Below, in pieces: positions 17,560 to 24,905 of a stretch of DNA of 64,000 nucleotides. The notes beneath the pieces are model-generated. The model saw only the letters and a list, made by a program, of their open reading frames with translations, had not been told where the DNA came from and did not search any database. How positions within the stretch are numbered: position 1 is the first letter of the stretch; every line of letters begins with the position of its first letter. The stretch lies in assembly GCF_019711595.1 (NCBI RefSeq), contig NZ_JAIGNR010000002.1:62001-126000 (forward strand), written 5' to 3'. The stretch comes from Qipengyuania sphaerica (lineage in GTDB: Bacteria > Pseudomonadota > Alphaproteobacteria > Sphingomonadales > Sphingomonadaceae). A program made the position numbers and the translations under genes.

Positions 17560-18681
17560 TCAGCTGGTCACCCGCGTGAGCAGCGGAACCCGGATCGTGG
17601 CGCGCAAGCCTTCGGGGCGGTAATCGGTCTCGATCGAGCCGCGAATACCGCGAATCACGCCGCTGATGAGGAAGCTGCCCGAACCGCCACCCTTGGTTTC
17701 GGGCGCGGGTGCGAGCGGCTCTGCGCCCTCGCCGAGATGCTCGATCCAGTGGATTTCGAGCCAGTCCTCGTCGGCATCCCAGTCCACGTGAACCCGGCCG
17801 TCCTCGCGTGACAGCGCGCCGTATTTGAGCGCATTGGTCGCCAGCTCATGCAGCGTGAGGCCGACAGGCGTCACGTTCTTGCGCGACAGGCCGACCGTCC
17901 CGCCCTCGATCTCGATCCGGTCCGTATAGGCATTGCGATAGGGCCTCAGCACCGCTTCGACGAGATTGCGAAGGTTGGTCCTGTCCTCGCTCAGGCCCTC
18001 GCCCTCGAGGCTGATGCGGTGCGCGCTCGACAGCGCCTCTATGCGGCGCTCGATCTTGTCCGAGAATTCGGGGACCGAGGTCGCACCTTTCGACGATAGC
18101 CGCACGATGGCCGTCAAGACGGCGAAGAGATTGTCCGTGCGGTGGCGCAGTTCCCTTGCGATGCGCTCGTTTTCGATAATGGTTTCACGCGCGGCGAGCA
18201 GTTCGGTGATGTCCCACTGCGAGCCGAAGAAATAGGCGAGCTTTCCGTCCTCGTGATAGATCGGTCCGACGTGGACCGCGTTCCAGAAGGCTGTGCCGTC
18301 CTTGCGATAGTTGAGGATGTCGGCGACCGTATAATCTTCGGTCATAATCGCATTGCGGAGCTTTTCGACCGCCTCGGCACGGGTGCCGCGCCCTTGCAGG
18401 AATCGGCAGTTCTGCCCGACGATTTCCTCACGCGAATAGCCGGTCAGTTCGACGAAGGCCTGGTTGCAATAGACGATCGGGCAATCGGGCTGATTGGGGT
18501 CCGATATGCACAGCGCCATGCGCGTCTGTTCGGTCGTCTGAAGGAACAGCTCCGACGATCCGATCTTGAGATCGGCCAAGCGGCCAGCCTGCCGCGCATT
18601 GCGAGCGGCGAACTTCATAAACTTCCTGTTGCTCTTAGACGGTGGCCCCGAGCCACCGTCCCCGCCATCGATACGACCCAT
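17560..18681 (-). CDS. Blue-light sensing LOV-HWE histidine kinase
   Basis: A 373-residue soluble sensor kinase. The LOV domain covers about residues 45-160 and holds the photoadduct motif GQNCRFLQG with Cys92, which bonds to flavin C4a under blue light. A HWE-class dimerisation domain follows with ARELRHRTDN and phospho-acceptor His180. The ATP domain has HELATNALKYG (278-288), the HWE marker HWIE (311-314) and a GSGSFLISG glycine loop. I start at MGRIDGG because GGAGA precedes it. It resembles the LOV kinases EL346 and EL368 described from Erythrobacter litoralis. No response regulator adjoins it, so its target is encoded elsewhere. Confidence 0.92.
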   Translation of the reverse strand: MGRIDGGDGGSGPPSKSNRKFMKFAARNARQAGRLADLKIGSSELFLQTTEQTRMALCISDPNQPDCPIVYCNQAFVELTGYSREEIVGQNCRFLQGRGTRAEAVEKLRNAIMTEDYTVADILNYRKDGTAFWNAVHVGPIYHEDGKLAYFFGSQWDITELLAARETIIENERIARELRHRTDNLFAVLTAIVRLSSKGATSVPEFSDKIERRIEALSSAHRISLEGEGLSEDRTNLRNLVEAVLRPYRNAYTDRIEIEGGTVGLSRKNVTPVGLTLHELATNALKYGALSREDGRVHVDWDADEDWLEIHWIEHLGEGAEPLAPAPETKGGGSGSFLISGVIRGIRGSIETDYRPEGLRATIRVPLLTRVTS

Positions 18682-18830
18682 GGCGAGGTCTCCCTTAATT
18701 GCGTCCCAAACGATCAAGGGAAATTCTGCCGCCGATTTTTCGGAATGCAAGCGGAAAAATGGCGGTATTCTGCCGTTTTTCCGCCATTTTTGGCACAAAC
18801 GATTGAGAGTGCTAGATCATTTGTTAACGT

Positions 18831-20459
18831 TCAAGAGCGCGAAAGTGCTTCGGCGATCAGCTTGCGTGAATTTTCGATGCCGTAGAGCGCAATAAAGCTG
18901 CCCATGCGCGGCCCCTGATCGCTGCCGAGCAGCGTCTGGTAGAGCGCCTTGAACCAGTCGCGCAGCGATTCGAAACCGTATTCCTCGCGCTTGCCGATCT
19001 CGTAGACTTCGGTCTGCAGGTCTTCCGCGCTGGTGTCGGCCGCTGCCTCTGCAAGAAAGGCATCGAGCGCCTTGAGCGCCTCGGCCTCGTTCGCGGCAGG
19101 CGCGCGCTTGGACAGCGTCGGCACGATGTAGTCGCGGGTATAGGCGACGGCCGTTTCGATCAGCACTTCTAGCTCCGGTCCGATCTTGTCCGCCCCGATA
19201 TAGCTGGCGAGATAGTCCCGCAGGCTCTCCTCGCTCGCCTCCGCACCGAGCACGCTGGCAAGGTTCAACAGCAGGCCATAGGTCACCGGCAGGCTGTCGC
19301 CCGCACCCGGTGCCTCGCTGCCCTCGAACCCGCCATTCGCGCGCGCGAGGTGCCACACGGGATTGCCCAACTGCTTGTCGAGCTCCTGCTCGGCCAGCCG
19401 TTCGCGGAACTGCCAGTAATCGTCCACCGCACGCGGGATCACGCCGACATGCAGCTGCTTTGCGCTCTTGGGGTTGGGGAAGATGTAGAAGCCGAGGCTC
19501 TCCTCGCTACCATATTGCAGCCATTCCTCGATCGAGAGGCCGTTGCCCTTGGACTTGGAGATTTTCTCGCCGTTCTGGTCGAGGAACATCTCGTAGATCA
19601 GGCCTTCAGGCTTGCGGCCGCCCAGTGCCTGGACGATCTTGCCCGACTGCACGCCGCTGTCGGTCAGGTCCTTGCCGTACATCTCGTAATCGACGCCCAG
19701 CGCATACCAGCGCATCGCCCAGTCGACCTTCCACTGCAGCTTCGACATGCCGCCCAGCGCCGACTGTTCGACCACGCTACCGTCCTCGTCGGTGAAGCGG
19801 ATCGTGCCGGCTTCGGCATCGACCACCTCGACCGGGACCTGCAGCACGCGGCCAGTATTAGGGCTGATCGGCAGGACGGGCGAATAGGTCTTGCGGCGTT
19901 CCTCACGCAGCGTGGGCAGCATGATGTCGAGGATCGCCTCGTTCTTCCGCAGCACCTGGCGCAGGGCATCGTCGAACTTGCCCGAATTGTACATGTCGCT
20001 CGCCGCGATGAACTCGTACTGGAAGCCGAAGCGGTCGAGGAAGGCGCGCAGCATGGCGTTGTTGTGCGCGGCAAAGCTCTCGTGCCCCTTTTCGAAAGGA
20101 TCGGGAACGCGGCTCAGCGGCAGGTGCAGGTTGGCCTGCAGCAGTTCCTGGTTCGGTACGTTGTCGGGCACCTTGCGCAGCCCGTCCATGTCGTCGGAAA
20201 AGGCGACGAGGCGCGTCTTTCCGTCCTCCGGCTTCGCGCCGATCATAGCCTCGAAGGCGCGGCGCACGAGCGTGGTGCGCAGCACCTCCTGGAAGGTGCC
20301 GATATGTGGCAGGCCGCTGGGGCCATAGCCCGTCTCGAACAGGACCGGCGAGCCATCGGGCTTTGCGCCATCGGGATAGCGTTTGAGCAGCCGCTGCGCC
20401 TCCTGGAAGGGCCAGGCCTTGGACACGCGTGCGGCTTCGATCAGGTCGGTCATGCTCAT
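18831..20459 (-). CDS. lysK: Class I lysyl-tRNA synthetase
   Basis: It charges tRNA-Lys. This is the archaeal-type class I form, which replaces the usual class II LysS in many alphaproteobacteria and spirochaetes. The 542-residue product has HIGH-like PHIGTFQEV near the N-terminus and the KMSKS-like loop KISKSKGN, with GYGPSGLPHIG forming the ATP site. The C-terminal helical part ends RKLIAEALSRS. Two in-frame ATGs lie at 20459 and 20453; AGAGGG supports the first. It is the only aminoacyl-tRNA synthetase in the window and has no operon partner. Confidence 0.96.
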   Translation of the reverse strand: MSMTDLIEAARVSKAWPFQEAQRLLKRYPDGAKPDGSPVLFETGYGPSGLPHIGTFQEVLRTTLVRRAFEAMIGAKPEDGKTRLVAFSDDMDGLRKVPDNVPNQELLQANLHLPLSRVPDPFEKGHESFAAHNNAMLRAFLDRFGFQYEFIAASDMYNSGKFDDALRQVLRKNEAILDIMLPTLREERRKTYSPVLPISPNTGRVLQVPVEVVDAEAGTIRFTDEDGSVVEQSALGGMSKLQWKVDWAMRWYALGVDYEMYGKDLTDSGVQSGKIVQALGGRKPEGLIYEMFLDQNGEKISKSKGNGLSIEEWLQYGSEESLGFYIFPNPKSAKQLHVGVIPRAVDDYWQFRERLAEQELDKQLGNPVWHLARANGGFEGSEAPGAGDSLPVTYGLLLNLASVLGAEASEESLRDYLASYIGADKIGPELEVLIETAVAYTRDYIVPTLSKRAPAANEAEALKALDAFLAEAAADTSAEDLQTEVYEIGKREEYGFESLRDWFKALYQTLLGSDQGPRMGSFIALYGIENSRKLIAEALSRS

Positions 20460-20726
20460 GCGAACCCTCTTGCTGGTCCGCCGCCGTGTTGCAAGTGCGA
20501 AGTGTTGGAGCGCGCGCCCGATAGCCCGACAGGATGGAACGGAAGGAACACGGTTCGGGCAGAAAAACCGTCGCGACCAGCAAGGCCGCCGCGTGTTGTG
20601 CCGGGCCAGCAAGCGAAGTCGCGGATCATGGCCCGTGTGGTATCGCGATGCTCAGGTGTTGGACAGCGACAGGCGCAAGAAACCTTCCAGAGCTACCGGA
20701 TGTGCGGCTGTTCCCGGCTCAAGCCA
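20460..20726. other. Gap upstream of lysK, next to the decayed locus
   Basis: 267 bases with no supported gene. It contains the lysK promoter region. I see no tRNA fold, no repeat and no homology that I recognise. Confidence 0.4.
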
Positions 20727-20930
20727 TCAGAATGACTTGCTGAAGCCGATCTCCGCTCGCTTGCGCGAATAGTCGTAGAATTCGACCGAGCTGCGGTTAC
20801 GTTCGATCACGACGCGTGCCAGCGGCGAGACCCCCATGAAACTGACCTGCCTGAAAACGATGCCCAAATTGGCTCTTGTCGTGCGGTCATGGCGTGCGCG
20901 CGGCAGGAGGGAGAGCCGTTCGTCGGCCTT
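20727..20930 (-). pseudogene. C-terminal remnant of a Slam-like outer membrane protein
   Basis: In a minus-strand frame ending at 20727, about 65 codons read as a typical C-terminus of surface lipoprotein assembly modifier (Slam/DUF560) barrels: DERLSLLPRARHD, then VFRQVSFMGVSPLARVVIER, RNRSSVEFYDYSRKRAEIG and FSKSF. There is no upstream start and no N-terminal TPR or barrel part. It overlaps the last codons of the truncated TonB receptor in another frame, so a deletion seems to have fused the two genes. Slam proteins export surface lipoproteins, often haem or metal binders partnered with a TonB-dependent receptor, which fits the neighbour. The family call is from memory of the motif pattern. 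Confidence 0.6.
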
Positions 20931-21978
20931 CAGCTCGCGAGAATGAGGGCGAGACCTTCCAGTTCACCACGGCCTCGGCAGATGTATCCCTGGCTTCGAC
21001 GCGCGTCTGGCCGAAGCCCTTCAGGGCCAATCGGCGGATCAGCGCATCGCCATGGCTGACCGTCAGCGATGCGGAGAAGCTGTCGTCGGACGCGTAGCGA
21101 ACCCGGGCGGTTACCGCATCGCTTCGAACCTTGTTCACACCCACGGTCCGTTCGTACACATCGGTCCGCCTTTCTTCGAACGGACGGCGTACTGCCTCGA
21201 ACTGGGGGGCCTGCGAGCGGGTGTGCGAATAACTCCCCGCGATCTCGAGACCAGTCATGGCTGCAGGCCTGTAGAGAAGCTTGAGCCTAGCCGCTTCGTA
21301 ATCGTCACGATCGATATCCGCATCCGCTATAAAATCCGCCATATCGCTGGAAACCGTGCTGCTGCGGATGTCGCCGGAAAAGCGGAACGCCAGCTGGTCG
21401 CCGACGATGGGGCCGGAAAGGGCGGCGGAAAACTGGCCGGTATCGGCATCTCCCAAGACCAGGCGCGACCTGCCATGCCAGCCGAACGTGGGATCCTCGG
21501 TTTCAATAAAGATCGCGCCGGCGATGGAATTGCGGCCCTGGGTGGTCGTCTGGGGGCTGCGATAGACCTCGATCCTCTCGATGTCCCACATGGGAGTAAC
21601 CGACGAAACATATTCGTAGTAGTTTGCCGGGCGTCCGTCGATCTGCAGGGTGGCGCGCGGACGTGTCCCGCCCAGAAATGCAAACAGGTTCCGCAACACT
21701 CCCGTCGAATCCATTCCGCGGATGGCCGGCGCCTCTTCCCCGGACCCGAATTGCACGTTGGGTACCATCATGAGCACGTCGTCGAGCCGGTCCATGGCAG
21801 CCGTATCGATCGCCTCCGCCTCAAGGACATGGACGCTCGAAGCGGTTTCCATGGTGGTTCGGCGAATGCGCTCGCCGGTCACGATGATTTCGCCCGCGTC
21901 AGCCTTGTCCGGAACACCGGCAGGTTCTTCGCCATCACTGGCGGCCAGGGCAGTGGCAAAGAGCAAAGCGGAAATCAT
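20887..21978 (-). pseudogene. Truncated TonB-dependent receptor
   Basis: The 363-codon frame has a short signal sequence (MISALLFATALAAS), a TonB-box-like segment EIIVTGERI, a full plug domain (VHVLEAEAIDTAAMDRLDDVL, AIRGMDSTG, IERIEVYRSPQTT-QGRNSIAGAI) and the first barrel strands. Homologous text stops at VNWKVSPSFS. The last 17 residues (RAEGRRTALPPAARTP) look out of frame. Complete receptors are 650-900 residues, so about half the barrel is missing. Without a closed barrel it cannot be a working transporter. The tail of a Slam-like gene follows directly. The intact ancestor probably took up haem or metal together with a surface lipoprotein. Confidence 0.8.
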
Positions 21979-22145
21979 CGTTCGTAATTTCGCCCAGGTT
22001 GTTGTTCGTGCATTATCCTAGCTTAATTCCGGACCAGCAAGCCGGTCCATGGATGCAGGCTGATGTTTTCCGGATGATTGCGCTCGGTGGGGTTTCATGA
22101 CGAGGCGCTTGCCCCGCGTTCCGTTTGTGTTCTAACGCCGCAAGC

Positions 22146-24905
22146 GTGAGCCAGCCTCTCCCCCTCCCTTCCCTCCACGCCAGCCACGCGGGCACCTGGC
22201 TGCGCGATGCGAATGGCGCGACGCGCGGGTGTTCGAAGGGCGAGGCGGTAATGGCGGCGGCGGACACCCCGCTCCTGCTTATGAACGCGCCGCTGGTGGC
22301 GAGCAGGCTGGGCTATCCGGACCTGTCGGGTCTCGACTTGCTCGAGCTCTTCGCCTTCATCCATCCGGCAAAATTCTGCGTGCCGACGCCCAAGGGCCTC
22401 GCCCATGCGCTGGGGCTGGAGGAACCGACAGACGATGCGGGCGTGCCGCTGCTGCTGCAACAGGCAGCGGGCGCGCTAGTAGCGACCTGCGAAAGCGATG
22501 ACTGGGCGGAGCGCGAGGGCGCGTGGTCGAGCCTTCAATCGCTCAGCCGCCTGCGATGGCCCTGGGCAAATGTCCTCGCGCCCCACGTGAAGAAGCCGGA
22601 GAAGGCGGAGAAATGGCTCTTTACCCGACTGCCCGAATGGGAGGAGACGCCCGAACGCCCGCAACCCGCGCAGGTGCTGATCGAGGAGCCGCAGATCGAG
22701 GCGCATCTCGAACGGTTGACTGGCGAAGGGGCTGAGAAGCGCGAGGGTCAGCGGCTTTATGCGCGCGGAGCGGGGCATGTTTTCGGCCCGCGCGACCGGC
22801 AGAAACGGCCGCATGTGCTGCTCGCGCAGGCGGGGACAGGCATCGGCAAGACGCTCGGCTATCTCGCGCCCGCTTCGCTGTGGGCGGCGCAATCGGGCGG
22901 GACGGTCTGGGTTTCGACCTATACCAAGAACCTCCAGCGCCAGCTCCGCCGCGAGAGCGCGCGGGCGTGGCCTGCCACGCGGCCCGACGGATCGCCGCCG
23001 GTGGTGGTGCGCAAGGGACGCGAGAATTACCTCTGCCTGCTCAATCTTGAGGACGCCCTGCAGGGCGGGTTCGCCGGCCGACCCGCGATCCTCGCCCATC
23101 TGGTGGCGCGCTGGGCAGCCTATTCGCAGGACGGCGACATGATCGGCGGCGATTTGCCCGGCTGGCTCGGCACGCTGTTCCGCAAGCGCGGGATCGCGGC
23201 GCTGACCGACCAGCGCGGGGAATGCGTCTATGCCGGATGCCCGCATTACCGGAAGTGCTTTATCGAGCGTAGCGCGAGGAACGCGGCGCAGGCCGACCTC
23301 GTCATCGCCAACCACGCGCTGGTCATGGTCAACGCCGCGCGCGGACGCGACCTTGCTAGCCGCCCGACGCGCATCGTGTTCGACGAGGGCCATCACGTCT
23401 TCGACGCTGCCGACAGCACCTTCTCCGCCGCGCTCACCGGGCAGGAGGCCATCGAACTCAGGCGCTGGATCATCGGACCGGAACGCAATTCGCGCGGGCG
23501 GCGGCGGGGGCTGGCTGCGCGACTTGCCGATGTCGCGAGCTATGACGAGGCGGGCGGCGATGCGGTGGAAGCCGCTATCGGGGCAGCCGAAGCCTTGCCC
23601 TCAGATGGCTGGCTGGGTCGGCTGGCCGAAGCCGCACCTTCGGGGCCGCTGGAGGAACTGCTGGGGCAGGTCCGAGCCGTTACCTATGCGCGCGACGAGA
23701 GCGGGCAGGAGGCAGGTTACGGCATCGAAACCGAGACCTCGCAACTGCCGGGTGAATTGGTCGAGGCTGCGGGGACTGCGGCCCAAGCCCTCGCGCAAAT
23801 CCGCCAGCCGCTCCTTAAACTGGCCGGTCGGCTCGAAGCCGTGCTCGAAGACGCGCCCGACTGGCTCGACGGACAGGGCCGCGCCCGTATCGAAGGCGCG
23901 CGCCACTCGCTGGCTTGGCGGATCGACCTCATCGCTGCATGGGAGGCTCTGCTCTCGCGGCTCGGCGGACCGGCCGATCCGGAATTCGTCGACTGGCTCG
24001 CGGTCGATCGCAACGATGCACGCGAATTCGATGTCGGGCTATATCGCCACTGGCTCGACCCGATGAAGCCCTTTGCGAAGGTCGTGCTCGAACCGGCGCA
24101 TGGGGTGATGCTCACCAGCGCCACGCTGACCGACCGCGACGAAAGCGGCGCGGACTGGGAGCACGCCATCGCCAAGAGCGGAACGCCGCATCTCGACCTG
24201 CTTCCCAAGACCGCGCAGGCCGATAGCCCATTCGATTACGCGGGCCGCGCAGAGGTACTGATCGTCACCGACATCAAGCGCGGCGACATTCCCGCGCTCG
24301 CCGGAGCCTATGCGCGCCTGATCGAGGCTTCCGACGGAGGCGTCCTCGGCCTGTTCACCGCCATCCGCCGGATGCGCGCGGTCTATGGCCGGATCGCCGA
24401 CCGCCTCGCCCGCGCGGGCCTGCCGCTCTACGCGCAGCATGTCGACCCGATCGATACCGGCACGCTGACCGACATCTTCCGCGACGATGCCCGCGCCAGC
24501 CTGCTCGGCACTGATGCGCTGCGCGACGGCGTGGACGTGCCGGGCCGCTCGCTAAGGTGCGTGGTGATGGAAAGCGTGCCCTGGCCCCGGCCTACCATCC
24601 TCCACCGCGCCCGCCGCGCCGCTGCTGCCGAAGAGGCCGGCGGCGCCCAGCGCTACGACGACCGTATCATCCGCGCGCGTCTCGCACAGGCCTTCGGGCG
24701 GCTGATCCGCAGCAAGGACGATGCGGGCCATTTCGTGGTTCTCTCGCCCGCCTTCCCCAGCCGGCTCCTCTCCGCATTTCCCGAAGGAACGCCCGTCCAC
24801 CGCGTAACGCTAGACGAAGCGCTGAAACGGGTCGAGCGGGGGATTGGCGCAGGCGAAGCCGAGACTGGCGCAGCGCGCGAGGAAGCGGCAGACAGCGACA
24901 TATGA
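22146..24905 (+). CDS. DinG/Rad3-like ATP-dependent DNA helicase
   Basis: A 919-residue superfamily 2 XPD-type helicase. The N-terminal 190 residues are an extra domain of unknown role (LLELFAFIHPAKFCVPTPKG). Walker A reads AQAGTGIGKTLGYLAPA. Four cysteines that could hold a 4Fe-4S cluster lie in YLCLLN and ECVYAGCPHYRKC, then the DEAH box VFDEGHHVFD. C-terminal motifs V and VI are DALRDGVDVPG and QAFGRLIRSKDD. The likely start is GTG at 22146, which keeps the conserved LPSLHASHAGTWL segment. Its stop overlaps the next start (ATGA). Family members unwind DNA damage and replication intermediates. Confidence 0.88.
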   Translation: MSQPLPLPSLHASHAGTWLRDANGATRGCSKGEAVMAAADTPLLLMNAPLVASRLGYPDLSGLDLLELFAFIHPAKFCVPTPKGLAHALGLEEPTDDAGVPLLLQQAAGALVATCESDDWAEREGAWSSLQSLSRLRWPWANVLAPHVKKPEKAEKWLFTRLPEWEETPERPQPAQVLIEEPQIEAHLERLTGEGAEKREGQRLYARGAGHVFGPRDRQKRPHVLLAQAGTGIGKTLGYLAPASLWAAQSGGTVWVSTYTKNLQRQLRRESARAWPATRPDGSPPVVVRKGRENYLCLLNLEDALQGGFAGRPAILAHLVARWAAYSQDGDMIGGDLPGWLGTLFRKRGIAALTDQRGECVYAGCPHYRKCFIERSARNAAQADLVIANHALVMVNAARGRDLASRPTRIVFDEGHHVFDAADSTFSAALTGQEAIELRRWIIGPERNSRGRRRGLAARLADVASYDEAGGDAVEAAIGAAEALPSDGWLGRLAEAAPSGPLEELLGQVRAVTYARDESGQEAGYGIETETSQLPGELVEAAGTAAQALAQIRQPLLKLAGRLEAVLEDAPDWLDGQGRARIEGARHSLAWRIDLIAAWEALLSRLGGPADPEFVDWLAVDRNDAREFDVGLYRHWLDPMKPFAKVVLEPAHGVMLTSATLTDRDESGADWEHAIAKSGTPHLDLLPKTAQADSPFDYAGRAEVLIVTDIKRGDIPALAGAYARLIEASDGGVLGLFTAIRRMRAVYGRIADRLARAGLPLYAQHVDPIDTGTLTDIFRDDARASLLGTDALRDGVDVPGRSLRCVVMESVPWPRPTILHRARRAAAAEEAGGAQRYDDRIIRARLAQAFGRLIRSKDDAGHFVVLSPAFPSRLLSAFPEGTPVHRVTLDEALKRVERGIGAGEAETGAAREEAADSDI

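Follow-up and report, generated by a model that had tools for sequence, protein, structure and literature searches.

An out-of-frame fusion of a TonB-dependent receptor piece and a Slam piece, the probable remnant of an uptake module in Qipengyuania sphaerica

Results

A receptor piece joined to a Slam piece

The window, the whole stretch of 64,000 nucleotides that was analysed, contains a minus-strand open reading frame (ORF) of 363 amino acids (start 21978, stop 20887), flanked by genes which we take to encode a class I lysyl-tRNA synthetase (LysK) and a DinG-like helicase (Table 1). The receptor piece comprises the N-terminus, the plug and approximately 8 of the 22 barrel strands of a TonB-dependent receptor (TBDT). 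A profile search with this piece showed the plug domain PF07715 (E 6.3e-17, 62.5 bits) and no match to the barrel domain PF00593 at E ≤ 0.001; the intact receptor of the congener G031 matched PF00593 at E 2.3e-36. The piece is 52-55% identical to the receptors of the congeners G031, G034 and G044 (open frames of 690-712 aa), receptors of close relatives being approximately 680-700 aa long, and similarity to full-length receptors ends at residue 346, corresponding to position 20941. Siderophore and haem receptor NCBIfam models both matched the piece below their cut-offs, and the nearest solved chain to the G031 receptor in a PDB sequence search was the pesticin receptor (E 1.8e-9), a result that gives no useful hint of the ligand; haem or a metal is a plausible candidate for the imported ligand.

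Table 1. Positions of the two gene pieces, their joint and their surroundings in the window
Feature	Position	Strand	Evidence
Flanking LysK gene, synteny marker	18831..20462	-	Match at E ≤ 1e-60 in 59/60 genus genomes
Stretch from the Slam piece to conserved DNA upstream of LysK	20573..20726	.	No match in the other loci compared
Slam (surface lipoprotein assembly modifier, PF04575) 3' end, last 69-70 codons and stop	20727..20939	-	PF04575 and identity to G031
Receptor ORF end, running out of frame through Slam sequence (AEGRRTALPPAARTP, stop)	20887..20934	-	ORF and nucleotide alignments
Receptor/Slam joint, exact breakpoint uncertain	20936..20941	-	Receptor match end, Slam match start, nucleotide alignments
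Receptor gene 5' half, 348 codons, homology to codon 346	20935..21978	-	PF07715 and identity to full-length receptors
Region upstream of the receptor piece, to helicase-side conserved DNA	21979..22100	.	Conservation starts at ~22098-22108, longest matches
Flanking helicase gene, synteny marker	22125..24905	+	Match at E ≤ 1e-60 in 60/60 genus genomes

The Slam piece is read in a different frame from the receptor (RELKADERL...GFSKSF, stop at 20729-20727). The Slam similarity that the first-pass annotation had read from the letters was borne out by profile search, as positions 231-288 of the 288 positions of PF04575 (SlipAM) were matched with 26.6 bits against a cut-off of 22 (E 5.4e-6), and from position 20936 the piece is 65% identical to the C-terminal 69 residues of the Slam of G031 (E 8.4e-25). 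In a whole-genome scan the piece was the sole PF04575 match in its own genome. Slams of close relatives are approximately 430-485 aa long; the complete Slam barrel and the N-terminal TPR domain are absent from the piece and were not found elsewhere in the genome. The intact G031 Slam matches PF04575 over 9-287, and PF24575 (TPR_Slam) below its cut-off.

The receptor and Slam matches abut with 4 bases between them, indicating that the joint is sharp, and it connects, in different frames, receptor codon ~346 (about 350 in G031) with Slam codon ~384 (numbered as in G031). The domain and homology matches, together with this being the only PF04575 in the genome, confirm that the fusion is a real feature, far from chance. 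The coordinates and frames first given for the receptor plug and partial barrel (from 21978, breaking near 20930) were right to within a few codons; the identity and frame of the Slam end also stood, and its length, first given as 65 codons, is 69-70 codons. Collapse of an intact module through an assembly error is very improbable, given that the scar lies within a 428-kb contig with both conserved flanks present and that no repeat capable of causing a collapse was seen in the present sequence of the joint.

To place the break, the intact G031 receptor was modelled with AlphaFold2 (mean pLDDT 78, 14-row alignment). With four short elements left out, 22 barrel strands were counted, and the break maps just past strand 8, so that on this model the piece is too short to be expected to form a closed TBDT barrel. 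It is barely credible that the truncated 363-aa receptor is a functional short protein: its frame is open and it retains 36/36 family-invariant residues, but a barrel of approximately 8 of 22 strands is predicted not to close, its final 15 residues come from Slam sequence read out of frame, and the short form was found in 0/6 other congeners with a receptor at E ≤ 1e-30. Five of these six have full-length frames of 690-726 aa, and the sixth (G053) is itself interrupted. In that genome an in-frame TGA interrupts the receptor (L049, G053:C1:601242-602114), a second decaying copy in the genus.

The LysK-helicase interval

The interval between LysK and the helicase gene spans 20463-22124 in the window. 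Both genes could be placed in 58 other genomes of the genus (a count that omits G054, which has no LysK match), and in 53 of these they are divergent neighbours, with gaps of 82-11,641 bp; in the exceptions the two genes lie on different contigs (four genomes) or 1.76 Mb apart (G011). In the window, conserved flanking DNA stops at ~20572 and ~22100, and the region upstream of the receptor piece gave one weak match of 35 nt, to locus L066 (E 0.027). A total of 97 ORFs in 51 families, the largest two present in 12 and 11 gaps, was found in 41 of the 53 gaps using a crude filter (≥ 100 aa, GC at the third codon position (GC3), overlap). The interval is a place of gene turnover, and its content differs among Qipengyuania species. 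No receptor, lipoprotein or Slam piece was found in the LysK-helicase gaps of the 53 other species at E ≤ 0.01, and a scar common to related species was rejected on these 0/53 gaps. In the gap of G032, part of the helicase 5' end is present a second time (L133:2749-3079), which suggests a duplication. In the window, the ORF at 17560-18798 is presumably a LOV-domain (NCRFLQG motif) histidine kinase-like protein.

Three two-copy repeat families of 12-14 nt lie near the remnant. One 14-nt direct repeat with one mismatch (20601-20614 / 22029-22042) flanks it just inside the conserved flanks; repeats of this quality were reached in 89/200 shuffles, and the pair is thus no evidence of an insertion. 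No tRNA was found in the 64-kb window, and a promoter scan gave no site. Four terminator-like sites were counted, where shuffles gave 1.4 ± 1.2; downstream of the Slam piece, two of the four lie on the minus strand. A rival reading is that an already-broken fragment, joint included, was acquired horizontally into the interval. Variable interval content between species would suit such an arrival, as would the GC3 of the receptor piece (0.73, with 0.79 in the Slam piece) compared with that of the neighbouring genes (0.85 and 0.80). Against it, the window is without a tRNA, the edges are without a repeat beyond chance, and a dead piece brings no advantage, making horizontal arrival quite improbable.

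A different Slam, together with a lipoprotein of 909-935 aa, lies directly upstream of LysK in G011 (L051:5990-10093), Q. gaetbuli (G044; L141) and G034 (G034:C4:902965-907050). This Slam belongs to another clade than the remnant's. The lipoprotein has Pro-Thr repeats, two TbpB_B_D segments over the cut-off and a third below it, and resembles the 'Sphingomonas surface protein' architecture as given in the available part of PMC12282271. The helicase gene is located elsewhere in these three genomes, indicating that the LysK-helicase interval itself was rearranged. Tentatively, gene turnover at the place beside LysK may have brought in and removed Slam uptake modules more than once.

Intact modules in relatives

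In total, 35 receptor stretches were compared, consisting of 29 loci and six further stretches, three of which duplicate loci among the 29; for the 29 loci, linkage to Slam was assessed over up to ~8 kb on either side, often ending at a contig edge. Intact loci form one module comprising a winged-helix regulator, a TBDT, one or more TbpB-like lipoproteins and a Slam. An intact receptor and Slam within the stretch were found in 11 distinct layouts, in agreement with the earlier proposal that the two form a gene pair. Receptor and Slam are collinear (receptor -> Slam) in seven of the 11, namely those of Novosphingobium mathurense (L063), Sphingopyxis jiangsuensis (L064), two Erythrobacter MAGs (L065 and L067), Sphingomonadales BRH_c42 (L068), Sphingomonas edaphi (L069) and N. 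kunmingense (L072), and in these seven loci the equivalent breakpoints lie 3.8-7.7 kb apart. They are head-to-head in G031 (L043), Q. gaetbuli (L061, the same as L045/G044, with G034 near-identical), Tsuneonella rigui (L070) and Sphingomonadales BRH_c3 (L073); thus every congener in which the pair is intact and linked (G031; G034 with Q. gaetbuli) has it head-to-head.

For six loci without a linked Slam the genomes were searched, and a Slam was found elsewhere in three (L062, L071 and L075); PF04575 was not found in the genomes of Tsuneonella litorea (L059), Croceicoccus bisphenolivorans (L060) and Q. qiaonensis (L076). These last three species carry an intact receptor of the remnant's family despite having no PF04575. 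In C. bisphenolivorans a lipoprotein (L060:7046-7924) adjoins the receptor and is weakly similar to the cargo lipoproteins; it gave no TbpB_B_D match.

The regulator, of approximately 520-530 aa with Trans_reg_C over and TPR below the cut-off, adjoins the receptor in either orientation (e.g. L044:12548-14140). The receptor's clade has 20 rows, and of its 19 other loci 18 have this neighbour, L074 ending at a contig edge; the protein may regulate the module itself. Lipobox-like starts were seen in the lipoproteins of G031, G044 and L063, which in a single-protein scan gave weak matches to TbpB_B_D or HphA_C below the cut-off. Across the genus, PF04575 occurs in 6/60 genomes, the remnant included, which makes patchy gain and loss the background. 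TbpB_B_D occurs in 7/60 genomes, all five with an intact Slam (G011, G031, G034, G044 and G049) together with G047 and G037, and this co-occurrence supports the functional link described in the available parts of PMC5449769 and PMC8406197.

Parts missing from the genome

The full G031 Slam, used as a query against the genome of the remnant at E ≤ 10, returned only the scar. The C-terminal half of the G031 receptor returned only five other receptor-like frames (27-39% identity, 702-921 aa; best E 3e-10 at 27%). Relocation of the missing halves elsewhere in the genome was rejected because these searches found none, in line with the first-pass annotation, according to which the middle of both genes is gone. 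No TbpB_B_D match was found in the genome at E ≤ 0.01, and hence no linked cargo; the G031 lipoprotein gave a best E of 3.2e-4, over its N-terminal 66 residues. An orphan cargo candidate (L162:6658-7644, 328 aa, E 0.003) was dropped as it lacks a TbpB_B_D match. This ORF, on contig C1 of the same genome, is lipoprotein-like, with a Ser-Ala-Cys-Gly-Gly-Gly start and a proline stretch, and has no significant Pfam match.

Age of the break and relationships of the two pieces

The receptor tree was built without L044-L047 (duplicates or near-duplicates of L061, L076 and L084) and the interrupted copy L049, and the Slam tree without L044 and L045. The receptor piece falls in a 5-row clade (support 100/99) with T. 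litorea, C. bisphenolivorans, G031 and Q. gaetbuli, in which T. litorea is its sister (93/85); both Slam-linked loci of this clade (G031 and Q. gaetbuli) are head-to-head, and the other two genomes are without a Slam. The Slam piece, of which only 70 residues entered the tree, groups with G031 (96/90), and the next relative, S. edaphi L069, is collinear.

The receptor piece breaks none of 36 family-invariant residues (31 rows, of which the others break 0-4), and the Slam piece none of eight (14 rows, of which the others break 0-1). Within the close clade of 19 rows, from which L074 was omitted as cut by a contig end, the receptor piece breaks 1/60 invariant residues and intact relatives break 0-4. 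With the invariant residues kept, the loss looks recent. From 1,254 undisturbed bases a neutral bound of less than ~0.011-0.033 substitutions per site since the loss was obtained, assuming 0.05-0.2 indels per substitution; without counting indels the bound is 0.107 substitutions per site, close to species divergence. The flanks differ by 12-14% from those of G052, the closest species compared as judged by the LysK and helicase proteins, and this difference, set beside the tight bound, suggests that the break is probably younger than the split from G052. The earlier reading of a loss recent enough to leave readable pieces is thus probably correct. One result speaks against recency: the end branch of the Slam piece is long (0.61, compared with 0.05 for G031), which may be due to faster change after the loss, to an older break or to an older divergence.

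Discussion

Very probably, a regulator-TBDT-lipoprotein-Slam (type 11 secretion) module was formerly present between LysK and the helicase gene, and the locus is what remains of it, no longer functional. In the intact module, as judged from the protein families, Slam would move the TbpB-like lipoprotein to the cell surface, where the lipoprotein would pass its ligand to the TBDT for import. One break would have brought the front of the receptor gene and the tail of Slam together in different frames, with loss of the intervening DNA. With approximately 8 of 22 receptor strands and only the last 69 Slam residues left, neither piece should work. The loss first described covered the two half-genes, which stands, but was too small in extent, as intact loci add a regulator and a lipoprotein cargo; by comparison with these loci, both would also have been lost from the LysK-helicase place. 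Non-function, recency, a single deletion and the loss of regulator and cargo from this place are what we infer from the two pieces and their intact counterparts.

How the joint arose is less certain. The most economical route would be one deletion of ~4-8 kb, yet a single deletion can give this joint only if the ancestor had receptor and Slam in the same direction. A simple deletion from a G031-like locus was rejected, because with receptor and Slam head-to-head one deletion cannot put both pieces in the same direction. The deletion first proposed is thus compatible with the collinear layouts (7/11) and at odds with the head-to-head arrangement of G031, which has the nearest Slam, and of Q. 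gaetbuli. A head-to-head ancestor (receptor <- -> lipoprotein-Slam) could instead have undergone an inversion with ends within the receptor and Slam genes, the outer part being deleted afterwards. G031, Q. gaetbuli with G034, L070 and L073 have the layout from which this would start, G031 has the nearest Slam, and both G031 and Q. gaetbuli belong to the receptor's 5-row clade. On the other side, this route takes two events or more, window positions 20500-22200 contain no inverted repeat of ≥ 12 nt, the other joint (receptor tail to Slam front) was not traced in the genome, and the locus with the next nearest Slam, L069, has the collinear layout. Inversion followed by loss is therefore rather unlikely, and as the layout of the module is evidently labile, the remnant was somewhat more probably formed by a single deletion. 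The full reading, a dead module remnant between LysK and the helicase gene formed by a single deletion, is given a probability of roughly 0.65.

The scar is real, probably recent, of a known module kind and located where genes turn over. Joint loss of a receptor, its probable regulator, a surface lipoprotein and the exporter of that lipoprotein is suggested by it, as are repeated gains and losses of Slam modules among environmental Sphingomonadales. For annotation, it is a warning that the 363-aa 'TonB receptor' belongs under pseudogene. To our knowledge, no environmental Sphingomonadales Slam module has been experimentally characterised.

In the open-access literature no mention of the remnant was found, and no paper pairing Qipengyuania with DUF560 or surface lipoprotein assembly. 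Slam clusters with a TonB-dependent receptor and a TbpB-like lipoprotein are described in the available parts of PMC5449769, PMC8406197 and PMC12282271. TonB-dependent receptor genes are given for 120/185 lipoprotein-bearing Slam clusters (PMC5449769, available part), and Slam subcluster 1C is described as largely Sphingomonadaceae and environmentally isolated (PMC8406197, available part); in the part of PMC9241875 that was available, 'TonB-dependent' appears solely within the reference list.

Compared with known Slam/type 11 secretion clusters (DUF560, PF04575), the remnant has a receptor and a Slam of the same families, and the loci of relatives carry TbpB_B_D-like lipoproteins; unlike those clusters, it keeps only the receptor front and the Slam tail, without cargo, regulator or Slam front. 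The G031 locus, from the same genus, has the nearest Slam (65% identity over 69 aa) and a receptor 55-57% identical, with open frames for receptor (682 aa), regulator (518 aa), lipoprotein and Slam (452 aa); it differs in its head-to-head receptor and Slam and in lying ~130 kb from that genome's LysK. Sphingomonas edaphi DAC4 (L069) has the collinear receptor -> Slam arrangement, from which one 3.8-kb deletion would give the joint, and its Slam shares a 3-row clade (98/97) with the Slam piece, whereas its locus is intact, its receptor is only 48% identical and its regulator lies between both genes on the other strand. Set against these systems, the locus is an ordinary though unusually readable scar, left by the loss of genes from a type 11 secretion/TonB uptake module of known kind, and no new system.
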